From NCBI RefSeq assembly GCF_029203305.1, contig NC_089465.1, positions 1-64,000 of the forward strand: a stretch of 64,000 nucleotides of DNA, in the 5' to 3' direction. The DNA is from Yamadazyma tenuis. Its lineage: Eukaryota; Ascomycota; Pichiomycetes; Serinales; Debaryomycetaceae. This document shows, in pieces, positions 1 to 37,228 of this stretch. Position 1 is the first letter of the stretch. The number at the start of each line of letters is the position of its first letter. Both the position numbers and the translations under genes were made by a program. A model generated the notes under the pieces. That model searched no databases and was not told where the DNA came from. It saw nothing but the letters and a program-made list of their open reading frames with translations.

Positions 1-1100
1 TACACCCACCGAAGTTCTGACCCATACACCCACCGAAGTTCTGACCCATACACCCACCGAAGTTCTGACCCATACACACAAGTTCTGACCCATACACCCA
101 CCGAAGTTCTGACCCATACACCCACCGAAGTTCTGACCCATACACCCACCGAAGTTCTGACCCATACACCCACCGAAGTTCTGACCCATACACCCACCGA
201 AGTTCTGACCCATACACCCACCGAAGTTCTGACCCATACACCCACCGAAGTTCTGACCCATACACCCACCGAAGTTCTGACCCATACACCCACCGAAGTT
301 CTGACCCATACACCCACCGAAGTTCTGACCCATACACCCACCGAAGTTCTGACCCATACACCCACCGAAGTTCTGACCCATACACCCACCGAAGTTCTGA
401 CCCATACACCCACCGAAGTTCTGACCCATACACCCACCGAAGTTCTGACCCATACACCCACCGAAGTTCTGACCCATACACCCACCGAAGTTCTGACCCA
501 TACACCCACCGAAGTTCTGACCCATACACCCACCGAAGTTCTGACCCATACACCCACCGAAGTTCTGACCCATACACCCACCGAAGTTCTGACCCATACA
601 CCCACCGAAGTTCTGACCCATACACCCACCGAAGTTCTGACCCATACACCCACCGAAGTTCTGACCCATACACCCACCGAAGTTCTGACCCATACACCCA
701 CCGAAGTTCTGACCCATACACCCACCGAAGTTCTGACCCATACACCCACCGAAGTTCTGACCCATACACCCACCGAAGTTCTGACCCATACACCCACCGA
801 AGTTCTGACCCATACACCCACCGAAGTTCTGACCCATACACCCACCGAAGTTCTGACCCATACACCCACCGAAGTTCTGACCCATACACCCACCGAAGTT
901 CTGACCCATACACCCACCGAAGTTCTGACCCATACACCCACCGAAGTTCTGACCCATACACCCACCGAAGTTCTGACCCATACACCCACCGAAGTTCTGA
1001 CCCATACACCCACCGAAGTTCTGACCCATACACCCACCGAAGTTCTGACCCATACACCCACCGAAGTTCTGACCCATACACCCACCGAAGTTCTGACCCA
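1..1100 (+). repeat. Telomeric repeat array, 24-bp unit
   Basis: Tandem 24-bp unit beginning TACACCCACC and ending CTGACCCA. There are three full copies (1-72), one shortened 20-bp unit (73-92) that lacks part of the CCACCG segment, then 42 full copies (93-1100) that look identical. The C-rich strand runs 5'->3' on +, so the chromosome end is to the left. The array stops abruptly at 1100 and is followed by non-telomeric DNA. Long telomeric units of 16-25 bp are typical of Candida/Debaryomyces/Kluyveromyces-type yeasts; I cannot assign this unit to a named species. Confidence 0.97.
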
Positions 1101-1199
1101 TTTGATCATTGTTGAGATTTATTATCAAAGCTGAACAGGGAATGCCAATTCATTGGAAGGGGGTATCGCCTAAAATTACCCTGTATTATAGATAAAGTA

Positions 1200-3176: not shown

Positions 3177-5429
3177 TCAAATGGATATCCACAAAAGAGC
3201 GGATAACACAGCCAAGAATGTGTATGTGTTTTTTGAACCCATGGCCTCGTACGTGGAGACTTCTTGTGGTGAGGATTCTGAGCCATTACCAGCTGAAGCC
3301 ACTTCAGCAGCCGCTCCAGAACCATTCCCTTTAGCACCAGTTGGAGAAACGGTTTCAGTAGGGTTAGCAGTGATAGCAGCAGCGAAAGTGAAAGTCGTAT
3401 ATGTTGTGACAGTGACATCTCCAGCGACATTTGTGCATGGTTCAGTTACCACGACGGTAGAAACTAATGAGTGTGGGATGTTACATATAACGGTATTCTT
3501 ACCATCATCACCAGTTGTTGTGGTGGTTGAAGGCTCCTTGCAGGTGCATGGTAAGATGATGGTGGTAACACCTTCTTCGATGATGACTGGTTCAGGAGTC
3601 TCAATGACAACGGTTGGTTTACCATCGGCCCCGGTTGTGGTATAAGTGGATGTAGTGGAGCCAGTCCATGGGATGGTAGTGCGCGCTTCAGGGGTTTCAA
3701 CAACCACAGTTGGTTCACCATCAGTTCCTGTAGTAGTGTACGTCGAAGTGAATGAACCAGTCCATGGGATAGTGGTGTAAGGTTCTGGAGTTTCAACCAC
3801 GACTGTCACGTCACCATCTGGACCAGTTGTGGTGTAAGTTGAGGTGAAAGAGCCAGTCCAATAAGTGGAAGTGGTGAAGATACTAGCTGGAGTTTCAACG
3901 ACCACAGTTGGTTCACCATCAGTGCCTGTAGTAGTGTATGTCGAAGTGAATGAACCAGTCCATGGGATAGTTGTATGTGCTTCTGGAGTTTCTTTAACAA
4001 TAGTTGGGCTACCATCGGTTCCAGTTGTAGTGTAAAATGTTGTGGTAGAGCCAGTCCATGGGGTGGTAACAGTTGGGACAGGAGTTTCCTTGACAATAGT
4101 TGGGTTACCATCGGTTCCGGTTGTAGTGTAACAGGTTGTGGTAGAGCCAGTCCATGGAGTGGTAACAGTGACAACACTTTTTGAAGATGGTACTTGACTA
4201 GAAGGAGAAACAGCACTCGAAGATGGAACTGTGGATGAAGGAGTACTCGAAGATGATATTGGAGTAGTCGAGTTTGTCCAGTGGAAGGACAGGCTTGATG
4301 ACGAAGTGCTGGTAAGTGGTGTACTTGTTGGCGTGGGAGTGGATGTTAATATAACGACAGTCTTAGGATCACTTGGATCGGAAGGAGTTAGAGTATAGGT
4401 TGTATCAATAGATCCATAACTAGTCGTTGTAGTTGTTGATTCAGGAGTCTTGATGTCCACAGTTACGGGATCACTTGGGTTAGATGGGTAGATGGTAGTA
4501 GTGGTAGTATCAGTGCCTGTCCATGGTTCAGTAGTGGTCGTTGTAGTTTCAGGAGTCAAGACGGTAATAGTCACAGGATCACTTGGATTGGATGGGTAGA
4601 TGGTAATAGTAGTAGGTACCGAACCTGTCCATACATCAGTAGTGGTTGTAGTGGTCTCTGGTATTTCAACAGTAACAGTCACATCCCCATCAGAGCCTGT
4701 TACTGTAACAGTCTCAGTATCAGTTCCAGTCCATATAATGGTGGTGGTAACTGAATAAGGACACGATGAGCTATTGTCAGTTGAGCTATACCAATCAATA
4801 TCATCTGTATGTTTAGTTCCATCAGGATAGGTTACGGACATGTTTAGTTGACCAAGGCCAGTTGCTTGGTAGTAGACCACCTTAATAGGATAATAGACTC
4901 CTCCTGTAAGGGTAACTGTCTCTGTAGCAGATGATGCTTCACCTGAGGCATATACACTAGCCATTTCATCTAAATTTCCTGTGAGCGGTTTCAGTCCACA
5001 ACAATCCATAGCAACCCCTGATCCAAGGGTAAAAGACGCTGCATCATCAGCAAAGCTTATTTCGAATGTGTAGTCTCCAGTTGTACTTGCATAAAAATAT
5101 CCCGATAGTCTCAAACCAAAGTAGGCTACGTTAACATTTTTCCCGTATAGGTCTCCATAATAAGCGGTCCCATCGTCCAGTGCTTCGAATGAGAAGTCTT
5201 GGCTGGTTACTCCTCCCCAGGAATAATCTGCCTCTGCTTGGTCAATTGCAGAAAGAGCCGCATCAAGTCCAGTGTAAATACCATATTCTTCAGAAGTTAT
5301 GTTGACATAATCGGCGTATAGACCTTTAGTGACAGAAGAAGGACTGCATCCTCCAATCGTATCAGCAGTGGCCACACCACAGAAAAGTTGAAAAACCACA
5401 AGAGTGGCTAATTTGAACTGGATTTTCAT
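3177..5429 (-). CDS. PA14/GLEYA-type GPI-anchored adhesin
   Basis: This 750-residue cell-wall adhesin probably mediates flocculation or adherence through a lectin-like N-terminal head. A signal peptide (about residues 1-22, ending FCGVATA) precedes a PA14/GLEYA-like domain (about 25-230). That domain shows a FADDAA acidic pair, a DCC motif and a YPDGTKHTDDIDWY loop, all reminiscent of the calcium-dependent sugar site of Flo/Epa adhesins. Then come many Thr-rich flocculin-type repeats (WTGS.T..YTTTG.DG.P.VV.ETP), a Ser/Thr stalk, and a C-terminal GPI signal ([20 protein letters not shown]). It is a paralogue of the plus-strand adhesin at 15465, sharing the C-terminal block and GPI tail. The ATG at 5429 begins a good signal peptide. 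The ligand is unknown. Confidence 0.9.
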   Translation of the reverse strand: MKIQFKLATLVVFQLFCGVATADTIGGCSPSSVTKGLYADYVNITSEEYGIYTGLDAALSAIDQAEADYSWGGVTSQDFSFEALDDGTAYYGDLYGKNVNVAYFGLRLSGYFYASTTGDYTFEISFADDAASFTLGSGVAMDCCGLKPLTGNLDEMASVYASGEASSATETVTLTGGVYYPIKVVYYQATGLGQLNMSVTYPDGTKHTDDIDWYSSTDNSSSCPYSVTTTIIWTGTDTETVTVTGSDGDVTVTVEIPETTTTTTDVWTGSVPTTITIYPSNPSDPVTITVLTPETTTTTTEPWTGTDTTTTTIYPSNPSDPVTVDIKTPESTTTTTSYGSIDTTYTLTPSDPSDPKTVVILTSTPTPTSTPLTSTSSSSLSFHWTNSTTPISSSSTPSSTVPSSSAVSPSSQVPSSKSVVTVTTPWTGSTTTCYTTTGTDGNPTIVKETPVPTVTTPWTGSTTTFYTTTGTDGSPTIVKETPEAHTTIPWTGSFTSTYTTTGTDGEPTVVVETPASIFTTSTYWTGSFTSTYTTTGPDGDVTVVVETPEPYTTIPWTGSFTSTYTTTGTDGEPTVVVETPEARTTIPWTGSTTSTYTTTGADGKPTVVIETPEPVIIEEGVTTIILPCTCKEPSTTTTTGDDGKNTVICNIPHSLVSTVVVTEPCTNVAGDVTVTTYTTFTFAAAITANPTETVSPTGAKGNGSGAAAEVASAGNGSESSPQEVSTYEAMGSKNTYTFLAVLSALLWISI

Positions 5430-7382: not shown

Positions 7383-9710
7383 ATGGGGAAATTATTTAAC
7401 ATTAGTCACAATCGAAGGTTTTTTTTCTACGGATTCATCGTCTTTTGGATAGTTTCAGCTGGTATCTGGATCTATGACTACACTTTGAATAATTCTAGTG
7501 AGTCGGACACGTCCATTTACCCCCTGGAACTGACTCCAAATGCAGTGTTGTCTAGTCCTCTGAATGTCAACAAAATCGATGTGTTTGAAGATTGTGCCAT
7601 CAAGAAGCTAGTGCAAACGTTGGGAATCGAGGATACCAGAAGTATTGATAGCCATTCGAGTGTGTATGACCAAATGTTGAAGAAGCATGCATTATCAGAC
7701 ATTCTAACAAACCTCGATTTCACTGAGAGATGCAACTTGTATTTTAAGAACCTATTTGTGCGAGACCACAACTGGTTTGTGGATCCCAATGAAGACTTCC
7801 CTCTTGAACATCGTGATACATTTGACTTACAGCTGTTTAAAAAAGAGAATTCCAAAAAAATAAGGTACAAATATGCCCAAATGTCAAACTTAGAATACGA
7901 CAAGATCAATTTCGACGACAAGAAAGTCCGCAAAGACGTGAAACGACTTGCTGAAGAAGAGTTCAATGAGTTCTGGGAACGAACCATGAAGACAGAACAG
8001 AAGATTGTAGACTACTTGTCCCATTTACGGATTTTCAACAAGTGCTATGTCACCAGTGATAATAGGTACATCATGAACAAAGCCAATGAATTGATAGAAA
8101 AAGTGGCTGACAACATAGATCACACTGAGTTCAAGGCCGACGATGATGAACTGTTAATCAACGATCTGGGTTCCAAATCCTGTAGTGAGTTGGAAAGCAG
8201 AATCTATAAATGGGTGTCTCATTCTTATCCTATTTATGAACGGTGGACTGGTGAAATATTTCTATCTCCTCCAGATCTACGTGGATTTGTTCATTATCCT
8301 GAGGTGTTCAAGACCACAAACTCCAAGTTCAAGGGGTCCACCAAGGACTTCTCCAAATCCACCTTCGCTGGGAATGGGCCATGCTTCTTCAACAAATTCA
8401 AAAATCTGTTGAATGGAAAGGGTATTGTACTATCGATCGGAGACAAACATGTTGATGATACTGTGAGATTCATTCACCTATTAAGAGCGTTGAGCAACCA
8501 CTATCCAATCCAAATCATCTACTATGACTCGCTCAGTGATGAGACCAAAGCAAGAATAGTCGCCGCTGCTAGAGACAAAATGATAGATTTACCAGAAAGC
8601 TTCCACAAAGTTTCCAAGCATTTCCCTTCCGACTACTTCCACATCAAAGACGGTGGAATGCCAAAGCAAGAAGTGTGGTTTGTAAAGACGTACAACACCA
8701 TTCACGACAACTTCAAAGAAAAGTTCAAGATGTTTGCCCATAAGTTTCTAGCAACGTTGTTCAATTCATTTGAGGAATTCATTTTAGTTGATGCTGATAC
8801 AGTGTTGTTGCAGAATCCATCCGAGTTTTTCGACTTGAAGGACTACAAAACCACCGGGGCCTACTTCTTCAAGGATAGAACTGCTCATGCATTCAGGCCA
8901 CCAGGTGATACTAAATTCTTTCAGAAGATAACCCCTTCGATTTTAGACAACTTGATGTTTGATATTCCCATCATCACCCAGAAGACTCTTGGATTAGAGT
9001 TCTTTAATGGAATGAGCCATTTCATGGAAAGTGGAGTGGTGTTGATCAATAGACACTTACACTTCAACTCCATCTTAACAATGCTCCAATTGAACTTCTT
9101 TAAGCCTGTTACCTCCAGAGTCCACGGAGACAAAGAGATATTCTGGTTGGGATTCGCCACCAGTGGTGATGAAGACTACCACTTCAACAAGAATTTCGCT
9201 GCATCAATCGGGACTCTTACTTCCCCGGAGGAAAGATTGACCAGTGAAGGAAACCTCAAGAAATCTCAGGAACTCTGTTCGCCACATTCAGGACACCTTG
9301 ATGAAAATGGAAAGTTATTGTGGTTTAACTCGGGGTTCAAGTTCTGTGGGAAAAGCGATCTTGTTAATTTTGAAACTGAAGTCAAGAAACACGACCATTT
9401 TAAATTCTTAAAAGATGCTGAATCCATGCGAGAGTATTATGAAAGCTCTCTAAAACTTAGAAACGCAGTTATTCCTCCCTTCAATATAAAATCGGAAATA
9501 AGGGCAGGGAACAGTGTTGAAGAGCCAGTAGAAGGCTGGCACATGGAACGTGGATATTGTCACAGTTATTTATGGTGTGCATACTCTTCGATAGGTGGAC
9601 TCACCTCTGACGGACAAGATAACACTCAAGTGGGACAAGTGTTCGAGTTCGATCAGGAGTCAATAGACTTGTATTCTTACTTGGGTGATATTTGGGTTGG
9701 GAATGAGTGA
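7383..9710 (+). CDS. MNN1-family alpha-1,3-mannosyltransferase
   Basis: A 775-residue type II Golgi glycosyltransferase of the Mnn1 branch of GT71, expected to cap N- or O-linked mannans with alpha-1,3-mannose from GDP-mannose. A short cytosolic tail and one membrane anchor (about residues 13-31) are followed by a lumenal stem and the catalytic domain. Family signatures are GKGIVLSIGD, LVDADTVLLQNP (DxD-type metal site near residue 470), SGVVLINRHLHF and KEIFWLGFA. The frame extends four codons upstream from a TTG; the first ATG at 7383 gives a normal type II anchor. Length is usual for the family. Such genes are often amplified and subtelomeric in CUG-Ser yeasts, and this one is flanked by repeat DNA. 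The exact linkage cannot be told from sequence. Confidence 0.9.
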   Translation: MGKLFNISHNRRFFFYGFIVFWIVSAGIWIYDYTLNNSSESDTSIYPLELTPNAVLSSPLNVNKIDVFEDCAIKKLVQTLGIEDTRSIDSHSSVYDQMLKKHALSDILTNLDFTERCNLYFKNLFVRDHNWFVDPNEDFPLEHRDTFDLQLFKKENSKKIRYKYAQMSNLEYDKINFDDKKVRKDVKRLAEEEFNEFWERTMKTEQKIVDYLSHLRIFNKCYVTSDNRYIMNKANELIEKVADNIDHTEFKADDDELLINDLGSKSCSELESRIYKWVSHSYPIYERWTGEIFLSPPDLRGFVHYPEVFKTTNSKFKGSTKDFSKSTFAGNGPCFFNKFKNLLNGKGIVLSIGDKHVDDTVRFIHLLRALSNHYPIQIIYYDSLSDETKARIVAAARDKMIDLPESFHKVSKHFPSDYFHIKDGGMPKQEVWFVKTYNTIHDNFKEKFKMFAHKFLATLFNSFEEFILVDADTVLLQNPSEFFDLKDYKTTGAYFFKDRTAHAFRPPGDTKFFQKITPSILDNLMFDIPIITQKTLGLEFFNGMSHFMESGVVLINRHLHFNSILTMLQLNFFKPVTSRVHGDKEIFWLGFATSGDEDYHFNKNFAASIGTLTSPEERLTSEGNLKKSQELCSPHSGHLDENGKLLWFNSGFKFCGKSDLVNFETEVKKHDHFKFLKDAESMREYYESSLKLRNAVIPPFNIKSEIRAGNSVEEPVEGWHMERGYCHSYLWCAYSSIGGLTSDGQDNTQVGQVFEFDQESIDLYSYLGDIWVGNE

Positions 9711-11640: not shown

Positions 11641-12490
11641 TTAATTTTACTTCAGAGATGCCCAATGCCCAGGTACACAGATAATATTGTTCAAGAATGA
11701 GAAAACTCATTAGCACGCAAAGAGATGTTGTTGAACCCAAAGCTCATAAAGATAGCCATGCTGCAGGTCGAGAATGTTCAGTATTTTCTCGTACTCAACA
11801 AAAAAAAGTAAAAAGTGGACTAATTGTAGCCAGCGGTCAAATTTTTCGACGGTGCAGAATTCTACCAAGGAAAACATTAACCGATCAATTGATAATAGTG
11901 GCGAGCTTGCTGGTGTCCGTATTAGTGAAGTAGGTACTGTATCTATAAAGAAAGCTGTTGCTGCTGCACCAATCTCTGGAATTGACGTAGAATTTTCCTT
12001 ATTTTGAGATGATATCGTTTACCATTGAGTTGTGGAAGAAGTGTACAAGCGCCAGATTCCAATAATTGCCTATTCCCCTTTGAATAGAGAAACTTTAACC
12101 GATCATGCTGCTGAACATCTTGATTTCTTGAAGACCTTTCACTCAAAAAAATTCAAGGCTATGACCCATACACCCACCGAAGTTCTGACGCCTTCAAAGA
12201 AATAAGAGTCGCTTGAACTCTTTATACTCGTCCACCAAGTCCAAGAATTTAACCTTGGAAGCTTTGTCATTGAGCTATGTTCAAAGTGTATCAGGCCCTA
12301 AGGACTTCGAAGGAATCCCGAGGTCATTAATATTATCCCAGTGTCATCCGGATCTGCCAAAGAAAATGTTGACAAGAACTTTGGCAGTCCCGTCCAATTA
12401 CCAAGAGTAGATGTTGAAGCTCTTCCTGAGATTCTCATGGGACGCCATATTTCCGGCGGTAGATGCTTCCCCGAAGCTGCTGCTTGGTAG
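11640..12490 (+). pseudogene. Pyridoxal-reductase-like aldo-keto reductase pseudogene
   Basis: Relics of a pyridoxal reductase (AKR8/PLR1-type: NADPH-dependent reduction of pyridoxal to pyridoxine) are spread over three frames. Recognisable pieces in order are VKFFDGAEFY (about 11838), a GELAGVRISEVGTVSIKKA stretch (about 11900-11960), GIDVEFSLF (11979-12004) followed by a stop, VVEECTSAR and IIAYSPLNRETLTDHAAEHL (about 12060-12125), LTLEALSLSYVQSVSGPKDF (about 12250-12310), and a C-terminal segment GGRCFPEAAAW ending at the TAG at 12488. About 50 residues of the middle are missing, and several stops and frameshifts are present. A telomeric unit (12162-12189) interrupts the homology. It is clearly dead. 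Confidence 0.8.
12162..12189 (+). repeat. Interstitial telomeric unit inside pseudogene
   Basis: A 28-nt exact match to the telomeric C-strand (TGACCCATACACCCACCGAA followed by GTTCTGAC): one full unit plus 4 nt. Aldo-keto-reductase homology continues on both sides, so it looks like an insertion at a repaired break. Confidence 0.9.
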
Positions 12491-15464: not shown

Positions 15465-17471
15465 ATGCTCCCCATACGGTTATCTATTTGGTCTTTAAGT
15501 CTCCCGCTTGTTCTTGGATATACAGGATGTAGTCCTCCATCAACTGCGAGTGGACTTATTGTTGATTACTATGATAAGGTGGCCGAGCATGCATCAGACT
15601 TTTCTTATCTTAATACCATAGATGCAATGTCTCCAAATGATACCAAGTACGGAGTTACCGATATTGATTTTACTTCTAATATGAAAACTGACAGTAACCC
15701 TTATTACCAAGATATTTATGGTAGAAGTACAAATGTCCACAATTTTGGTTTAAGACTTTCAGGATACTTTCGTGCTCCTAAAGATGGGACTTATATATTC
15801 ACTTTCCTAATAGCTGACGATTATGTGACCATGACCATGGGTGGGGCTACACAAGACTTAGACTGTTGTATCAAATCCACTGAGCTTTCACTAGATGGGG
15901 CAGTCCAGGCTAGTGGAACCAGTGCAGGTGGCTCACTGACAATTTCACTGGTTTCTATGACAGCCGGTAACTTTTATCCAGTGAAGATTATTTACTTCAA
16001 TCAAGCGTCAAATTGGGCTGGAATGAAACTTCAAGTGACTTATCCCGACGGTACCAATCATACAGATGACATTGCCTGGTACTATTCTGCAGCTGCTGAA
16101 GAAGAATTGTGCACCACCACGACCACCACCGATTATTGGACCGGTTCAGATACTGAGTATTTCACAGTAACAGGTTCAGATGGACAGGTCACTGTCACCA
16201 AGGAGGTACCAAGAACTACAACAACCACCACCGATTATTGGACCGGTTCAGATACTGAGTATTTCACAGTAACAGGTTCAGATGGACAGGTCACTGTCAC
16301 CAAGGAGGTACCAAGAACTACAACAACCACCACCGATTATTGGACCGGTTCAGATACTGAGTATTTCACAGTAACAGGTTCAGATGGACAGGTCACTGTC
16401 ACCAAGGAGGTACCGGAATCTACCACCTCCGGTACTTTGTCAGACCTGTCTATCCGCTGGGTGAATTCAACTAGTCCAGCACCTTCTAGTCCAGCACCTT
16501 CTAGTCCAGCACCTTCTAGTCCAGCACCTTCTAGTCCAGCACCTTCTAGTCCAGCACCTTCTAGTCCAGCACCTTCTAGTCCAGAACCTTCTAGTCTAGC
16601 ACCTTCTAGTCCAGCACCTTCTAGTCCAGCACCTTCTAGTCCAGCACCTTCTAGTCCAGCACCTTCTAGTCCAGCACCTTCTAGTCCAGCACCACCTACA
16701 CTACCATCTTTGGGAAGTGTAGATACTATTACCACCCCATGGACTGGGTCCACTACTTCATCTTATACCACAACTGGAACCGATGGTAAGCAAACTGTGG
16801 TTGTCGAGACTCCAGTAGAACACATAACTACTCCATGGACAGGGTCCACTACTTCATCTTATACCACAACTGGAACCGATGGTAAGCAAACTGTGGTTGT
16901 CGAGACTCCAGTAGAACACATAACTACTCCATGGACAGGGTCCACTACTTCATCTTATACCACAACTGGAACCGATGGTAAACCTACTGTAGTCGTTGAA
17001 ATTCCAGAACTTGTGGTCACCGAAAAAGATGTCACCACCATCATCTTACCATGCATCTGCAAGGAGCCTTCCACTACCACAACAACTGGTGATAATGGTA
17101 ATACCGTTATATGTAACATCCCACATTCACTAGTTTCAACTGTCGTGGTCACTGAGCCGTGCACTAATGCTGCTGGAGATGTCACTGTCACAACATATAC
17201 TACTTTCACTACCGCTGCTGCTGTTACTGCTAACCCTACTGAAACCGTTGCTGCTGTTACTGCTAACCCTACTGAAACCGTTGCTCCAACTGGCGCTAAA
17301 GGTAGTGGCGCTAAAGGTAGTGGCGCTGAAGGTAGTGGCGCTGAAGGTGCTTCGGCAGGTAATGGCTCTGATACTTCACCACAAGATTTCTCCACTTACG
17401 AGGCTACGGGTTCAAAGAACACATACACATTTTTGGCTGTGCTATCCGCTCTTTTGTGGATCTCATTTTGA
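15465..17471 (+). CDS. PA14/GLEYA-type GPI-anchored adhesin, repeat-rich
   Basis: A 668-residue paralogue of the minus-strand adhesin at 3177-5429, in inverted orientation 10 kb away. A signal peptide (about 1-18) precedes a PA14/GLEYA-like head with [15 protein letters not shown] and [15 protein letters not shown], the same putative calcium/sugar-site landmarks. Next come three nearly identical 34-residue [16 protein letters not shown] repeats, a run of about 15 SPAPS pentapeptides, three 32-residue [16 protein letters not shown] repeats, short NPTETV and GAKGS repeats, and the GPI signal ([16 protein letters not shown]). It is probably displayed on the cell wall for adhesion or flocculation. 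The near-identical DNA repeats should change copy number readily, altering stalk length. The ligand is unknown. Confidence 0.9.
16112..16417 (+). repeat. Three 102-bp tandem repeats in adhesin
   Basis: Three almost identical copies encoding a 34-residue Thr-rich WTGS unit, each ending in a GTACC-containing codon pair (KEVP). The low divergence points to recent expansion or homogenisation. Confidence 0.85.
16471..16692 (+). repeat. 15-bp minisatellite (SPAPS) in adhesin
   Basis: About 15 units of AGTCCAGCACCTTCT, with only a few substitutions (one GAACCT, one AGTCTA). It encodes a Pro/Ser-rich spacer within the stalk. Confidence 0.9.
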
Positions 17472-34054: not shown

Positions 34055-34523
34055 TTTAATTTGCTATTGTCGTTGATAAAGTATATGGTGGTTTCGGTGA
34101 GGTTTATATAGTGTGGTTTTGCAGCAATTTGCTGAATAAGCCTTAGTAAAATGAGCTCCGGGCCCGGAAGTGAGAAACGGTTGTGCGGGTCGGATGCCAG
34201 AATAAGCCCAGCAGCAGCGTATGACCCATACACCCATACACCTATAGACCCAAACTTGGATATCTGGACAGCTCGGCAGTCAGACAACATTCCATAAACA
34301 CTCAATCATTCAACACCTCTGCTCCCACCTTACAGGCCACTATGGCCAATTCATCCCATCTAGCTCAATATACGAACATCCAGCCATTCGCAGCTTTTCG
34401 CACTTTACTAATGGATTATTAAGCTTGCTCACACGCCATTCAGTTTTACTAATCTCTCAAATAAACCTCAATCGATACATATATATATATACCGCTTTTC
34501 TCCAGAGTCTACCGCAAATAACT
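34055..34523. promoter_or_regulatory. Divergent promoter with Rap1-like/telomere-like site
   Basis: Shared upstream region of the two flavodoxin-like genes. TGACCCATACACCCATACACC (34222-34242) starts as a 15-nt exact telomeric match and contains ACACCCATACACC (34230-34242), which fits the yeast Rap1 consensus. An ATATATATATATACC tract (34479-34493) is a TATA-like element 30-45 bp before the YCP4 ATG. Confidence 0.65.
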
Positions 34524-35270
34524 ATGAAGGTCGCCGTCATCTACTACTCTACCTACACCCATGTTGAAACCTTGGCCAAGTCCATCCAACTGGGAGTGGA
34601 ATCTGCTGGTGGTCAAGCCGATTTATTCCAAATCGAAGAAACCTTACCCGAAGAGGTCTTGAAAGCCATGTACGCTCCACCAAAGTCCGACGTACCACTT
34701 GCGTCTGTGGACACCTTGAAGGAATACGATGCGTTCTTGTTCGGAATTCCTACTAGATTTGGTAACTTACCTGCCCAATGGAAAGCTTTCTGGGACCAAA
34801 CCGGTGGTTTATGGGCATCTGGAGGGTTATATGGTAAGCCATTCGGGCTCTTCATTTCCACTGCCGGTGCCGGTGGAGGCCAGGAAGCCACCGCCAGAAA
34901 CGCGTTGTCTTCGTTCATTCACCACGGTATGATTTATGTGCCTTTGGGATACGGCGAAGCTTTCCCACTTTTGACCAACTTGGAAGAAGCTCATGGAGGC
35001 TCTCCATGGGGTTCGGGAGCCTTTGCTGGTGGCGATGGTTCCAGACAACCAAGTAAACTTGAGTTGGATATTGCAGCCATTCAAGGTAAGAGTTTTTTCA
35101 CCACTGCTAACAAGCTTGTGGGAACCAGTGAACCTGAACCCACCAAGGAAGCGGTTACCACTGCCACTGCTGATTCCCCCACGGAAAAGCCTGTTGCCAA
35201 GAGAGAAGCACAGCTGAAGCCTGCGGAGGCCGAATCACAATCGACTTGCTCCAAGTGTGTAGTTATGTAA
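34524..35270 (+). CDS. YCP4: Flavodoxin-like quinone reductase with CaaX box
   Basis: A 248-residue WrbA/flavodoxin-like protein: VAVIYYSTYTHVETLA (FMN loop), [33 protein letters not shown], and a [18 protein letters not shown]-terminal domain segment. A 45-residue low-complexity tail ends in CSKCVVM, a CaaX farnesylation motif (C245) with a second Cys nearby for acylation, predicting plasma-membrane attachment as for Ycp4. The frame extends 33 codons upstream through the TATA tract; the ATG at 34524 matches the start of the paralogue. Probable role is quinone reduction protecting membrane lipids from oxidation. Confidence 0.9.
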   Translation: MKVAVIYYSTYTHVETLAKSIQLGVESAGGQADLFQIEETLPEEVLKAMYAPPKSDVPLASVDTLKEYDAFLFGIPTRFGNLPAQWKAFWDQTGGLWASGGLYGKPFGLFISTAGAGGGQEATARNALSSFIHHGMIYVPLGYGEAFPLLTNLEEAHGGSPWGSGAFAGGDGSRQPSKLELDIAAIQGKSFFTTANKLVGTSEPEPTKEAVTTATADSPTEKPVAKREAQLKPAEAESQSTCSKCVVM

Positions 35271-35584
35271 AAGTTAATTGATTAATGGAAGAACCGCCGA
35301 ACAAACAGCGACAACAGAGAAGCATAGAGGATACGGAGTATGCCACAGACGGCAGCCCCGGGTGAGGGTAAAGTTAGTAACAGTTTGAAGGCTTCGTGCT
35401 TGAGTGGTACTTACCATTCAATTCCGGCCAGTGGAATACCTCTCCCATCGCATCATCGCCACCTAATCACCACAGACTCAGGCGTACCGCGTATCGATAC
35501 TGTGACAAAGTCACCTCCAACGCGTCTTTTGGCTAATATAAGTGAATATTCACTAAAAAATAGCCGGATTCCCCAATTGTAACC

Positions 35585-35661
35585 TACTAAAGGGGCCGGA
35601 GCCCCGGAAAACTCCACATTTTGCAAGCTTTTGTAGGTGAAGCCAGGGCTCTACTTTAGTA
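35585..35661 (-). other. Extended RNA-type stem-loop
   Basis: Outer arms TACTAAAG (35661-35654) and CTTTAGTA (35592-35585) are perfect complements. Inner arms GAGCCCTGG (35651-35643) and CCGGGGCTC (35607-35599) pair over 9 bp with one U-G wobble on the minus strand, which would be an A-C mismatch on the plus strand. The strand asymmetry favours a minus-strand RNA. Confidence 0.65.
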
Positions 35662-35724
35662 TCGTACTAACAACTGCGGGCACCGGCTTTAGGAGCTGAT
35701 CATGGATCAACAGTGGTTTTGGAC

Positions 35725-35753
35725 AACTTCGGTGGGTGTATGGGTCAGAACTT
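35725..35753 (-). repeat. 29-nt telomeric match; putative template
   Basis: Minus-strand AAGTTCTGACCCATACACCC then ACCGAAGTT, exact to the 24-bp telomeric unit over 29 nt with AAGTT at both ends. It is flanked by non-telomeric DNA. Confidence 0.9.
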
Positions 35754-36145
35754 ACTTCAAGTATTAGGCTGGGCTCCGAAGAGCATTTGTGAGTAATATC
35801 ACTACGGCAGTTGGGGGCCTGTGAGAAATAACGGGCGATTTCTGGAGACTTGGGGTCGATTTGAATTGCACACTGGCCGTGTGAATTGAATTTGAGGTTT
35901 TTGGTGGACGAGTAGGGCGCGCTATAAAGCCTGTGGTGCAGACACGTACCAGGGAGGTGTTGAAAGATGATGGTAGTGGGTTCGTGTTGGGGGTGGTGGT
36001 GATGGGGCCAGCGACGGTGTCAGCACTGTCGAGTATATAATGTGAAGTTTTACTGGCTCGAGGTAGGTGTTTTTTGTGAGCTTGAGGTTGTATTAGTGGA
36101 GTCGATTTTGCAGCATTTTGGCGCGACTTGGTGTTTGTTTACGGC

Positions 36146-36937
36146 ATGGATCGCAGTGCTACACCTTTAGATGATATTATGCTACAGGGCCCGAAGGGCC
36201 AGAGGAGTGGAGTAGTGGCCCTGGGGAGTACTAAGGGCTACTCTGAGAGTGAGAGTGAAGTGGAGGACAGTGATGTTGAGTTCACACTCTTGGTAGGGAC
36301 GGACTTGAATAACATTAGGCATAAGCACATAGAGCCAATAGAGTACACAGAGCCAATAGAGTACACAGAGCCAATAGAGTACACAGAGCCAATAGAGTAC
36401 ACAGAGCCAATAGAGTACACAGAGCCAATAGAGTACACAGAGCCAATAGATTACACAGAGCCAATAGAGCACGCAGAGCCAATAGAGCACACGAGACCAA
36501 GCGAGTACAAAGAGATAATGGATCACAAAGAGATTATAGAGCACACAGAAAACAACCTCGCCCATACCATAGACATTACGAAAGTTGTACGACTACAGCC
36601 ACAAACAAATGTCCCACATTCCCAAACACCAACACCAACACCAACACCAAACTCGGGCGAGGAATTTCTCACTCAAACGACCTCAATCACCACTTCTTTG
36701 ACCATGAATTCTATGACTACGACTCCCAATACATCTCAGCTCCCTACTGACTCTCTGTTTTCCACGCTGTCGCCCAAGCTCCCCATGCTACGACCATCAC
36801 ATAACACTCCCAGGACCCGGGTCCAAAAGTCTGGTAAACTTTCCGACATCCTCAGCAAAATTAACCCTGGTCCCAGATACAAAATCGGCCTCAGTAAACA
36901 CCATAAAATAGATTCATTACATAGGATTAAAAAGTAA
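36146..36937 (+). CDS. Repeat-containing protein with RAD51AP1-like C-terminal motif
   Basis: A 263-residue, mostly disordered protein. Residues 63-134 are twelve hexapeptide repeats (six EPIEYT, then drifting to EPIEHT, RPSEYK, EIIEHT) encoded by an 18-bp minisatellite. Pro/Thr-rich linker follows. The last 20 residues contain R-YKI-GLSKHHKIDSLH, fitting the spacing GLS[RK]xx[RK][VI]xxLH found at the C-terminus of vertebrate RAD51AP1, where it binds RAD51. I infer a possible recombinase-binding protein; this rests on one short motif. The frame opens from a TTG; the ATG at 36146 is used. A TATATAA lies about 110 bp upstream. It is convergent with DAD1. Confidence 0.6.
   Translation: MDRSATPLDDIMLQGPKGQRSGVVALGSTKGYSESESEVEDSDVEFTLLVGTDLNNIRHKHIEPIEYTEPIEYTEPIEYTEPIEYTEPIEYTEPIEYTEPIDYTEPIEHAEPIEHTRPSEYKEIMDHKEIIEHTENNLAHTIDITKVVRLQPQTNVPHSQTPTPTPTPNSGEEFLTQTTSITTSLTMNSMTTTPNTSQLPTDSLFSTLSPKLPMLRPSHNTPRTRVQKSGKLSDILSKINPGPRYKIGLSKHHKIDSLHRIKK
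36332..36547 (+). repeat. 18-bp minisatellite (EPIEYT)
   Basis: Unit GAGCCAATAGAGTACACA. Six near-identical copies at the 5' side, then progressively diverged copies; all stay in frame. Confidence 0.9.
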
Positions 36938-36973
36938 CTAATAGTACACATTCACACTTAATCCACCACCGAC

Positions 36974-37228
36974 TTAAGCTTCTTGGCTCCCCTGGGTATC
37001 TTGTTGGCCTTCCACCTCATTCTCTTCTTCTGGTTCTTGCTGGCCCAGTTCTTTCTTGAGCCCGCTGTAGAAGTTTGCCCATAGATCGCTAACGTTATCG
37101 AATTCTTTGCTGACTTGGATGGAATTGTGTAATGATCGGTTCAAGGTGTTGAGGTTCAACACAATGGAGTTGATGGAGTTGCTTATCTCCTGGATCAACG
37201 TGTCTCTGTACTTTTCAAAGTCGCTCAT
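36974..37228 (-). CDS. DAD1: DASH/Dam1 complex subunit Dad1
   Basis: An 84-residue protein whose first 62 residues match Dad1: FEKYRDTLIQEISNSINSIV then LNTLNRSLHNSIQV..EFDNVSDLWANFYSGL. Dad1 is part of the ten-subunit DASH complex that couples outer kinetochores to microtubules. Most of it is predicted helix; the tail is acidic (EPEEENEVEGQQ). Just upstream, ACGCGATTTCGCGCGCGAC (37242-37260) offers MCB/SCB-like cell-cycle boxes 14-32 bp before the ATG. Confidence 0.93.
   Translation of the reverse strand: MSDFEKYRDTLIQEISNSINSIVLNLNTLNRSLHNSIQVSKEFDNVSDLWANFYSGLKKELGQQEPEEENEVEGQQDTQGSQEA

Follow-up and report, generated by a model that had tools for sequence, protein, structure and literature searches.

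A probable telomerase RNA gene with splice-like 3′ end signals in the yeast Yamadazyma tenuis

The DNA analysed here, referred to as the window, comprises the initial 64 kb of contig C5 of Yamadazyma tenuis, a CTG-clade yeast. Searches beyond it covered the genome as 8 contigs with 10,858,197 bases. For strain ATCC 10573, the excerpted text of the assembly report gives 7 chromosomes with 10,831,699 bases and a mitochondrial genome of 26,498 bases, and describes the assembly as gapless (PMC10281105). The left telomere of C5 occupies window 1-1101 as an array of period 24 (46 copies, 99% matches), and its 24-nt repeat is the one printed for Y. tenuis ATCC 10573 in the same excerpt (PMC10281105). 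Long Ser/Thr-rich repeat frames were seen at window 3177-5429 and 15465-17471, and also in the piece around 1302 kb of contig C1 (L017 6228-8687). In appearance these frames resemble those of flocculin-type cell-surface proteins.

The locus under study is a gap of 875 bp (35271-36145) around a telomeric match. The first-pass annotation of this DNA had proposed a telomerase RNA gene, TER1, in about 870 bp without an ORF, between two intact genes and far from the telomere. The size of the gap stands, but ATG frames of 80, 47 and 26 aa lie inside it, and the distance amounts to 35 kb from the left contig end. The left neighbour, which ends at 35270, is a flavodoxin-like gene by Pfam match; the right neighbour is an open, repetitive frame (36146-36937) that found no Pfam match and no homologue among 4646 candidates in one protein search, so that only the left gene can be called intact with support. 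PIEYTE repeats, encoded by 18-base tandem repeats at window 36324-36549, lie inside the right frame. The features of the locus, and the interior loci with long telomeric matches, are collected in Table 1.

Table 1. Features of the candidate locus (window coordinates) and interior telomeric matches in the genome
Feature	Position	Strand	Description
TATATA, possible promoter element	36034-36039	minus	no other TATA match upstream of the template within the gap
Predicted RNA core	35415-35895	minus	3′ end at 35415; ends predicted from P1 and the splice site
P1 5′ arms	35871-35891 (35891-35883 and 35879-35871, 3-nt bulge between)	minus	perfect 9-nt inverted repeats
Small hairpin GCUC-UUCG-GAGC	35773-35784	minus	19 nt 5′ of the template; mean pair probability 0.5
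Predicted template	35725-35753	minus	29-nt exact C-strand match to the telomere array; AAGTT at 35753-35749 and 35729-35725
Predicted long hairpin arm	35562-35688	minus	127 nt, 3′ of the template; z -2.65 against 300 shuffles; pair probabilities mostly >0.9
Sole U6 run	35555-35560	minus	candidate U-rich pseudoknot strand or degenerate Sm site (AUUUUUUA)
P1 3′ arm	35416-35433	minus	18 nt without interruption; one base separates the arm from the predicted cleavage
GUAAGU, predicted 5′ splice site	35409-35414	minus	cleavage predicted between 35415 and 35414
UACUAAC, predicted branch site	35373-35379	minus	35 nt after the GUAAGU start; branch A at 35374
AG-free stretch and first AG	35249-35372	minus	AG-free 35372-35251, first AG 35250-35249; AG 124 nt from branch A
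Interior locus	C1:1757348-1757381		34-nt match, longest of the four; flanked by an SH3-domain frame and an FTR1-family gene
Interior locus	window 35725-35753		29-nt match; candidate TER1
Interior locus	window 12162-12189		28-nt match; copy on C4
Interior locus	C1:1302533		24-nt match, then an inverted 44-nt run

Read on the minus strand, the predicted template has the letters AAGTTCTGACCCATACACCCACCGAAGTT. The telomeric C-strand match noticed in the first-pass annotation is exact and is maximal against the telomere array, and its design, one 24-nt repeat with AAGTT at both ends, was confirmed on the minus-strand letters. As in the templates of budding-yeast telomerase RNAs, more than one repeat complement is thus present, with a short repeat at both ends (29 = 24 + 5 nt). 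One repeat plus a terminal direct repeat is the layout that, according to an excerpt of PMC6115765, helped to verify the templates of Saccharomycetaceae. The occurrence of a 29-nt match is far beyond chance expectation; the match is nevertheless non-unique in the genome. In an unconstrained fold the template is open only in part, with a mean unpaired value of 0.48 (0.36 overall), which counts against the candidate.

Downstream of the predicted RNA body, on the strand of the template, GUAAGU and UACUAAC are present with the spacing given in Table 1, as 5′ splice site and branch site of a telomerase RNA cleaved by the spliceosome would be. No 3′ splice site lies in reach of this pair. Introns sampled for comparison, taken as the 150 nt after the first 20 plus-strand GTATGT...TACTAAC sites of a list of 100, had 2-14 nt between branch A and the first AG in all 20 cases, whereas 124 nt separate the two at the candidate locus, a distance that fits a block of the second step. 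GTATGT followed by TACTAAC at 22-52 nt was found 100 times in the genome and 12 times in the control, so most of these sites should be real introns. The count of GTAAGT...TACTAAC pairs, 26 against 20 in control, is barely above it and tells against the candidate; because this excess is small, the pair alone is weak evidence. By our own arithmetic from the two controls, the chance of such a pair within 400 nt 3′ of the match is about 6 in 10,000.

GAATG immediately precedes GTAAGT, and introns that adjoin the start codon are common in yeasts. The motifs could in that case belong to a protein-coding gene of the minus strand whose first exon stops at ATG, directly before GUAAGU. This reading is barely credible, since AG is absent for 124 nt, and past the AG-free stretch lies the opposite strand of the flavodoxin-like gene, where one ATG frame of 101 aa is found.

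The Sm consensus AU4-6GR has no occurrence on the minus strand of 35271-36145, the nearest sequence being AUUUUUUA at 35561; its absence speaks against the candidate. An Sm site is not universal in telomerase RNAs, and in the excerpted text of PMC6115765 it is seemingly missing in the TERs of filamentous fungi.

The strand of the template also carries a long-range helix, P1, whose 3′ arm lies at the predicted splice site. P1 is made up of two adjacent 9-bp helices that link sequence upstream of the template to the 3′ end, with pair probabilities of 0.89-1.00, and with its 9 + 9 bp would serve as the closing helix expected of a budding-yeast telomerase RNA. Between the 3′-terminal 26 nt and the sequence upstream of the template, pairing reaches -27.2 kcal/mol (shuffle mean -16.8), a value attained in 0 of 1000 shuffles for each of the two shuffled sides. 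Only 0.7% of 2000 random 26-mers from the window pair as well as the terminal 26 nt. Helix pairs of the form of P1 occur once in the window with both strands searched, the form having been defined after P1 was seen; the fold of 35895-35415 gave z -3.18, its ends likewise chosen after P1 was seen. Several results count against the candidate. Among 217 overlapping windows 3′ of the template, 8 pair at least as well as the 3′-end window, some of them overlapping the P1 arm; the fold over 36010-35415 is unremarkable (minus strand z -1.8, plus strand z -2.0); and the best long-range duplex over 36010-35360 is a helix other than P1 and not unusual (15 of 150 shuffles). P1 thus stands out only in the narrower tests and not in the broader duplex test. 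As far as sequence goes, the splice signals and P1 together would fit telomerase RNAs that are cut by the spliceosome.

Elsewhere in the predicted RNA, structure is less distinct. The small hairpin 5′ of the template is possible as a template boundary element in these folds, but not convincing: in a constrained fold the 5′ helix near the template is weak (probability 0.21), and the hairpin with 0.5 is 19 nt off. The best pseudoknot candidate 3′ of the template (-18.8) was equalled or beaten in 158 of 300 shuffles. The first-pass annotation had proposed a check with a covariance model; the Rfam models gave no support, with no family matching up to E 10 in 34500-37000. Yeast TERs escape such covariance models according to the excerpted part of PMC6115765. 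A three-way junction, the counterpart of CR4-CR5, is described as conserved in the fungal TERs examined in an excerpt of PMC9504884.

The 5′ end would fall at 35895 if P1 closes the RNA, and may lie as far upstream as about 36000 if TATATA sets the start. The implied length is about 480 nt, or about 600 nt with a start set by TATATA at 36039. This is short, as TERs of yeasts are usually longer than 1000 nt according to the excerpt of PMC6115765, and it counts against the candidate.

A TERT RNA-binding domain is present at C7:217835 (E 1.7e-9). With a TERT gene in the genome and an assembly described as gapless, the template should exist somewhere in the assembly. Telomere-like sequence is widespread in this genome, and a telomeric match alone is therefore no proof of TER1. 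A census was carried out with patterns in which GGGTGTATGGG is broken 24 nt up or down, or TCAGAACTTCGG is broken downstream; by our own arithmetic it could miss about 1 in 7 loci with a 29-nt match. The telomere core GGGTGTATGGG was found outside arrays at 86 and 92 sites with its two patterns (4 and 5 in reversed controls), which combine to 123 distinct sites, some near contig ends. With the third pattern, taken from the remaining half of the repeat, 9 sites were found, and these leave the list of interior loci unaltered. In the letters printed, an exact match of at least 24 nt is seen in 9 of the 123 sites; 4 of these lie within 2 kb of a contig end, and the remaining 5 make up the four distinct interior loci of Table 1.

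One GGGTGTATGGG core site lies at window 34222-34236, between two divergent flavodoxin-like genes. The dispersed core may be a Rap1-type promoter site, and we take it to resemble the Rap1 site of S. cerevisiae. If so, the 29 nt could be a long example of a dispersed regulatory motif, a Rap1-type binding site in a promoter, and the strong over-representation of GGGTGTATGGG outside arrays speaks for this. It is nonetheless a highly improbable account of the locus. The length of 29 nt exceeds that of such a site, few of the core sites attain even 24 nt, the frame downstream begins 393 nt off and its status as a gene is unconfirmed, and the RNA-like features would be left unexplained.

The first-pass annotation had named an interstitial telomeric repeat as the main alternative, and this deserved weight, as such repeats occur elsewhere in the genome. 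The 29 nt would then stem from break repair or a rearrangement, and the locus would yield no telomerase RNA. The position inside the chromosome fits, and interstitial sequences do exist here. At C1:1302 kb (L017 3263-4604), an array (24 and 44 nt head-to-head) truncates a mannosyltransferase-family frame exactly at the array edge, and the 28-nt match at 12162-12189 is part of a duplication with C4:1240700-1241100, where all 401 of the 401 nt compared in the C4 copy are identical. Even so, the interstitial reading is unlikely for the candidate locus. It accounts neither for a splice pair on the template strand that lacks a 3′ splice site nor for the helix P1 that ends at it, and a TER must exist in an assembly that is described as gapless and carries TERT, while the other loci fit worse.

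Some further observations were made at these interstitial sites. An intact relative of the truncated mannosyltransferase-family frame is found at window 7383-9710. The identity with C4 of the 401-nt stretch that holds 12162-12189, with both copies close to chromosome ends, marks a recent subtelomeric duplication. The letters near 12029-12490 suggested an aldo-keto-reductase pseudogene; Pfam matched none of its three pieces, and it is not claimed.

On the C-strand, TACTAAC occurs in the roughly 1000 nt that follow the match at 35725-35753, and is absent over that distance at the other three interior loci. Among the four, the combination of GUAAGU, UACUAAC and a long AG-free stretch is thus confined to the candidate. 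The locus at C1:1757348-1757381 was nevertheless considered as the true TER1, with the window locus as a relic, as it holds the longest exact match of the interior loci. In addition, its gap of 1.4 kb between the SH3-domain frame and the FTR1-family gene would fit the usual length of a TER, and AUUUUUGG occurs on the minus strand at 1746 (local numbering of the C1:1757-kb piece, L087). The 5′ part of the match, however, pairs with a diverged inverted copy in a 10-bp hairpin, so that less than one repeat would stay open. Four stretches around the match gave z of -0.6 to +1.5 (60 shuffles each). There is no TACTAAC on that strand in the gap, and the sole GTAAGT and AUUUUUGG are upstream of the match, which is the wrong order. 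A true TER1 at C1:1757 kb is accordingly very improbable. The existence of this longer match, the 34 nt on C1, counts against the window candidate; neither a splice signal nor an excess of folding is present there.

The C1:1757-kb match with its diverged inverted copy lies in mid-chromosome (L087 1549-1598). The letters ATACTTACC had suggested a U1 snRNA gene at the same place. This was rejected, as the best U1 match, itself below the cut-off, is at C1:719 kb, and at C1:1757 kb Rfam gave no more than two sub-threshold matches.

Taken together, TER1 of Y. tenuis is likely to lie on the minus strand between about 36000 and 35415, with its template at 35753-35725 and a spliceosomal 3′ end at 35415/35414. 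The candidate put forward in the first-pass annotation is thus supported, short of proof: it outlasts the comparison with rivals across the genome, and carries both the splice pair and P1 on the strand of the template. From the features of the locus we infer transcription, both RNA ends, cleavage and template use. The RNA would be transcribed leftward, P1 would join its two ends, and the 29-nt template would be exposed. A chromosome end may then anneal to AAGUU at the 3′ side of the template, the 24-nt repeat would be copied up to the other AAGUU, and TERT would add 24 nt per cycle, each followed by a 5-nt realignment. The precursor would extend past both GUAAGU and UACUAAC. Splicing would stall after the first step, because no AG occurs for 124 nt past branch A, and the 5′ fragment released in this way, with P1 closing it, would constitute the mature RNA. 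A more specific and rather doubtful proposal is a miniature telomerase RNA of about 480 nt. Its 3′ end would be formed by the spliceosome in the absence of any 3′ splice site, and a helix with the RNA's own 5′ end would seal it in place of an Sm ring. No report of the telomerase RNA of Y. tenuis was found in the literature searched.

Yeast telomerase RNAs diverge fast, and homology searches miss most of them. Branches outside Saccharomycetaceae are mostly without TER annotation in the account excerpted from PMC6115765. A TER from Yamadazyma would add a data point for the CTG clade. If the small size and the missing Sm site hold, it would also be a test of the minimal RNA that yeast telomerase needs. 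The formation of its 3′ end by the spliceosome is directly testable, since the AG distance of 124 nt contrasts with at most 14 nt in the sampled introns.

The telomeric repeat of K. lactis is 25 nt in the excerpted text of PMC8211666. In K. lactis, as predicted for Y. tenuis, the template for a long homogeneous repeat has short direct repeats at its two ends. The template of K. lactis TER1 is 30 nt, and that RNA has a pseudoknot and a three-way junction; no pseudoknot better than shuffles was found in the Y. tenuis candidate.

Telomerase RNAs (TER1) of CTG-clade Candida were reportedly described by Gunisova in 2009. The Y. tenuis candidate resembles them in a template that matches a long homogeneous repeat and in carrying a 5′ splice site and a branch point close to its 3′ end; its differences are a predicted size of about 480-600 nt and the missing Sm consensus. 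The available part of PMC6746865 reports both splice signals for the 3′ ends of Candida TERs, and describes the Sm site of the Y. lipolytica TER as resembling the one in the C. albicans TER. Candida psychrophila, of the same family as Y. tenuis (Debaryomycetaceae), has a different repeat, TTATGAGGTGTCTGGATG, which an excerpt of PMC5578839 locates both at the ends of contigs and within the template of a putative TER1.

In S. pombe TER1, splicing is halted after its first step by a branch site of full complementarity and by a long distance from there to the 3′ splice site, according to the excerpt of PMC4299874. The Y. tenuis candidate would share with it the 5′ splice site, a strong branch site, a long 3′ splice site distance (124 nt to AG) and the restriction to the first step. 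In the same excerpt the Sm site of S. pombe TER1 overlaps the 5′ splice site by one nucleotide (PMC4299874), and in Y. tenuis this place is held by the predicted helix P1.
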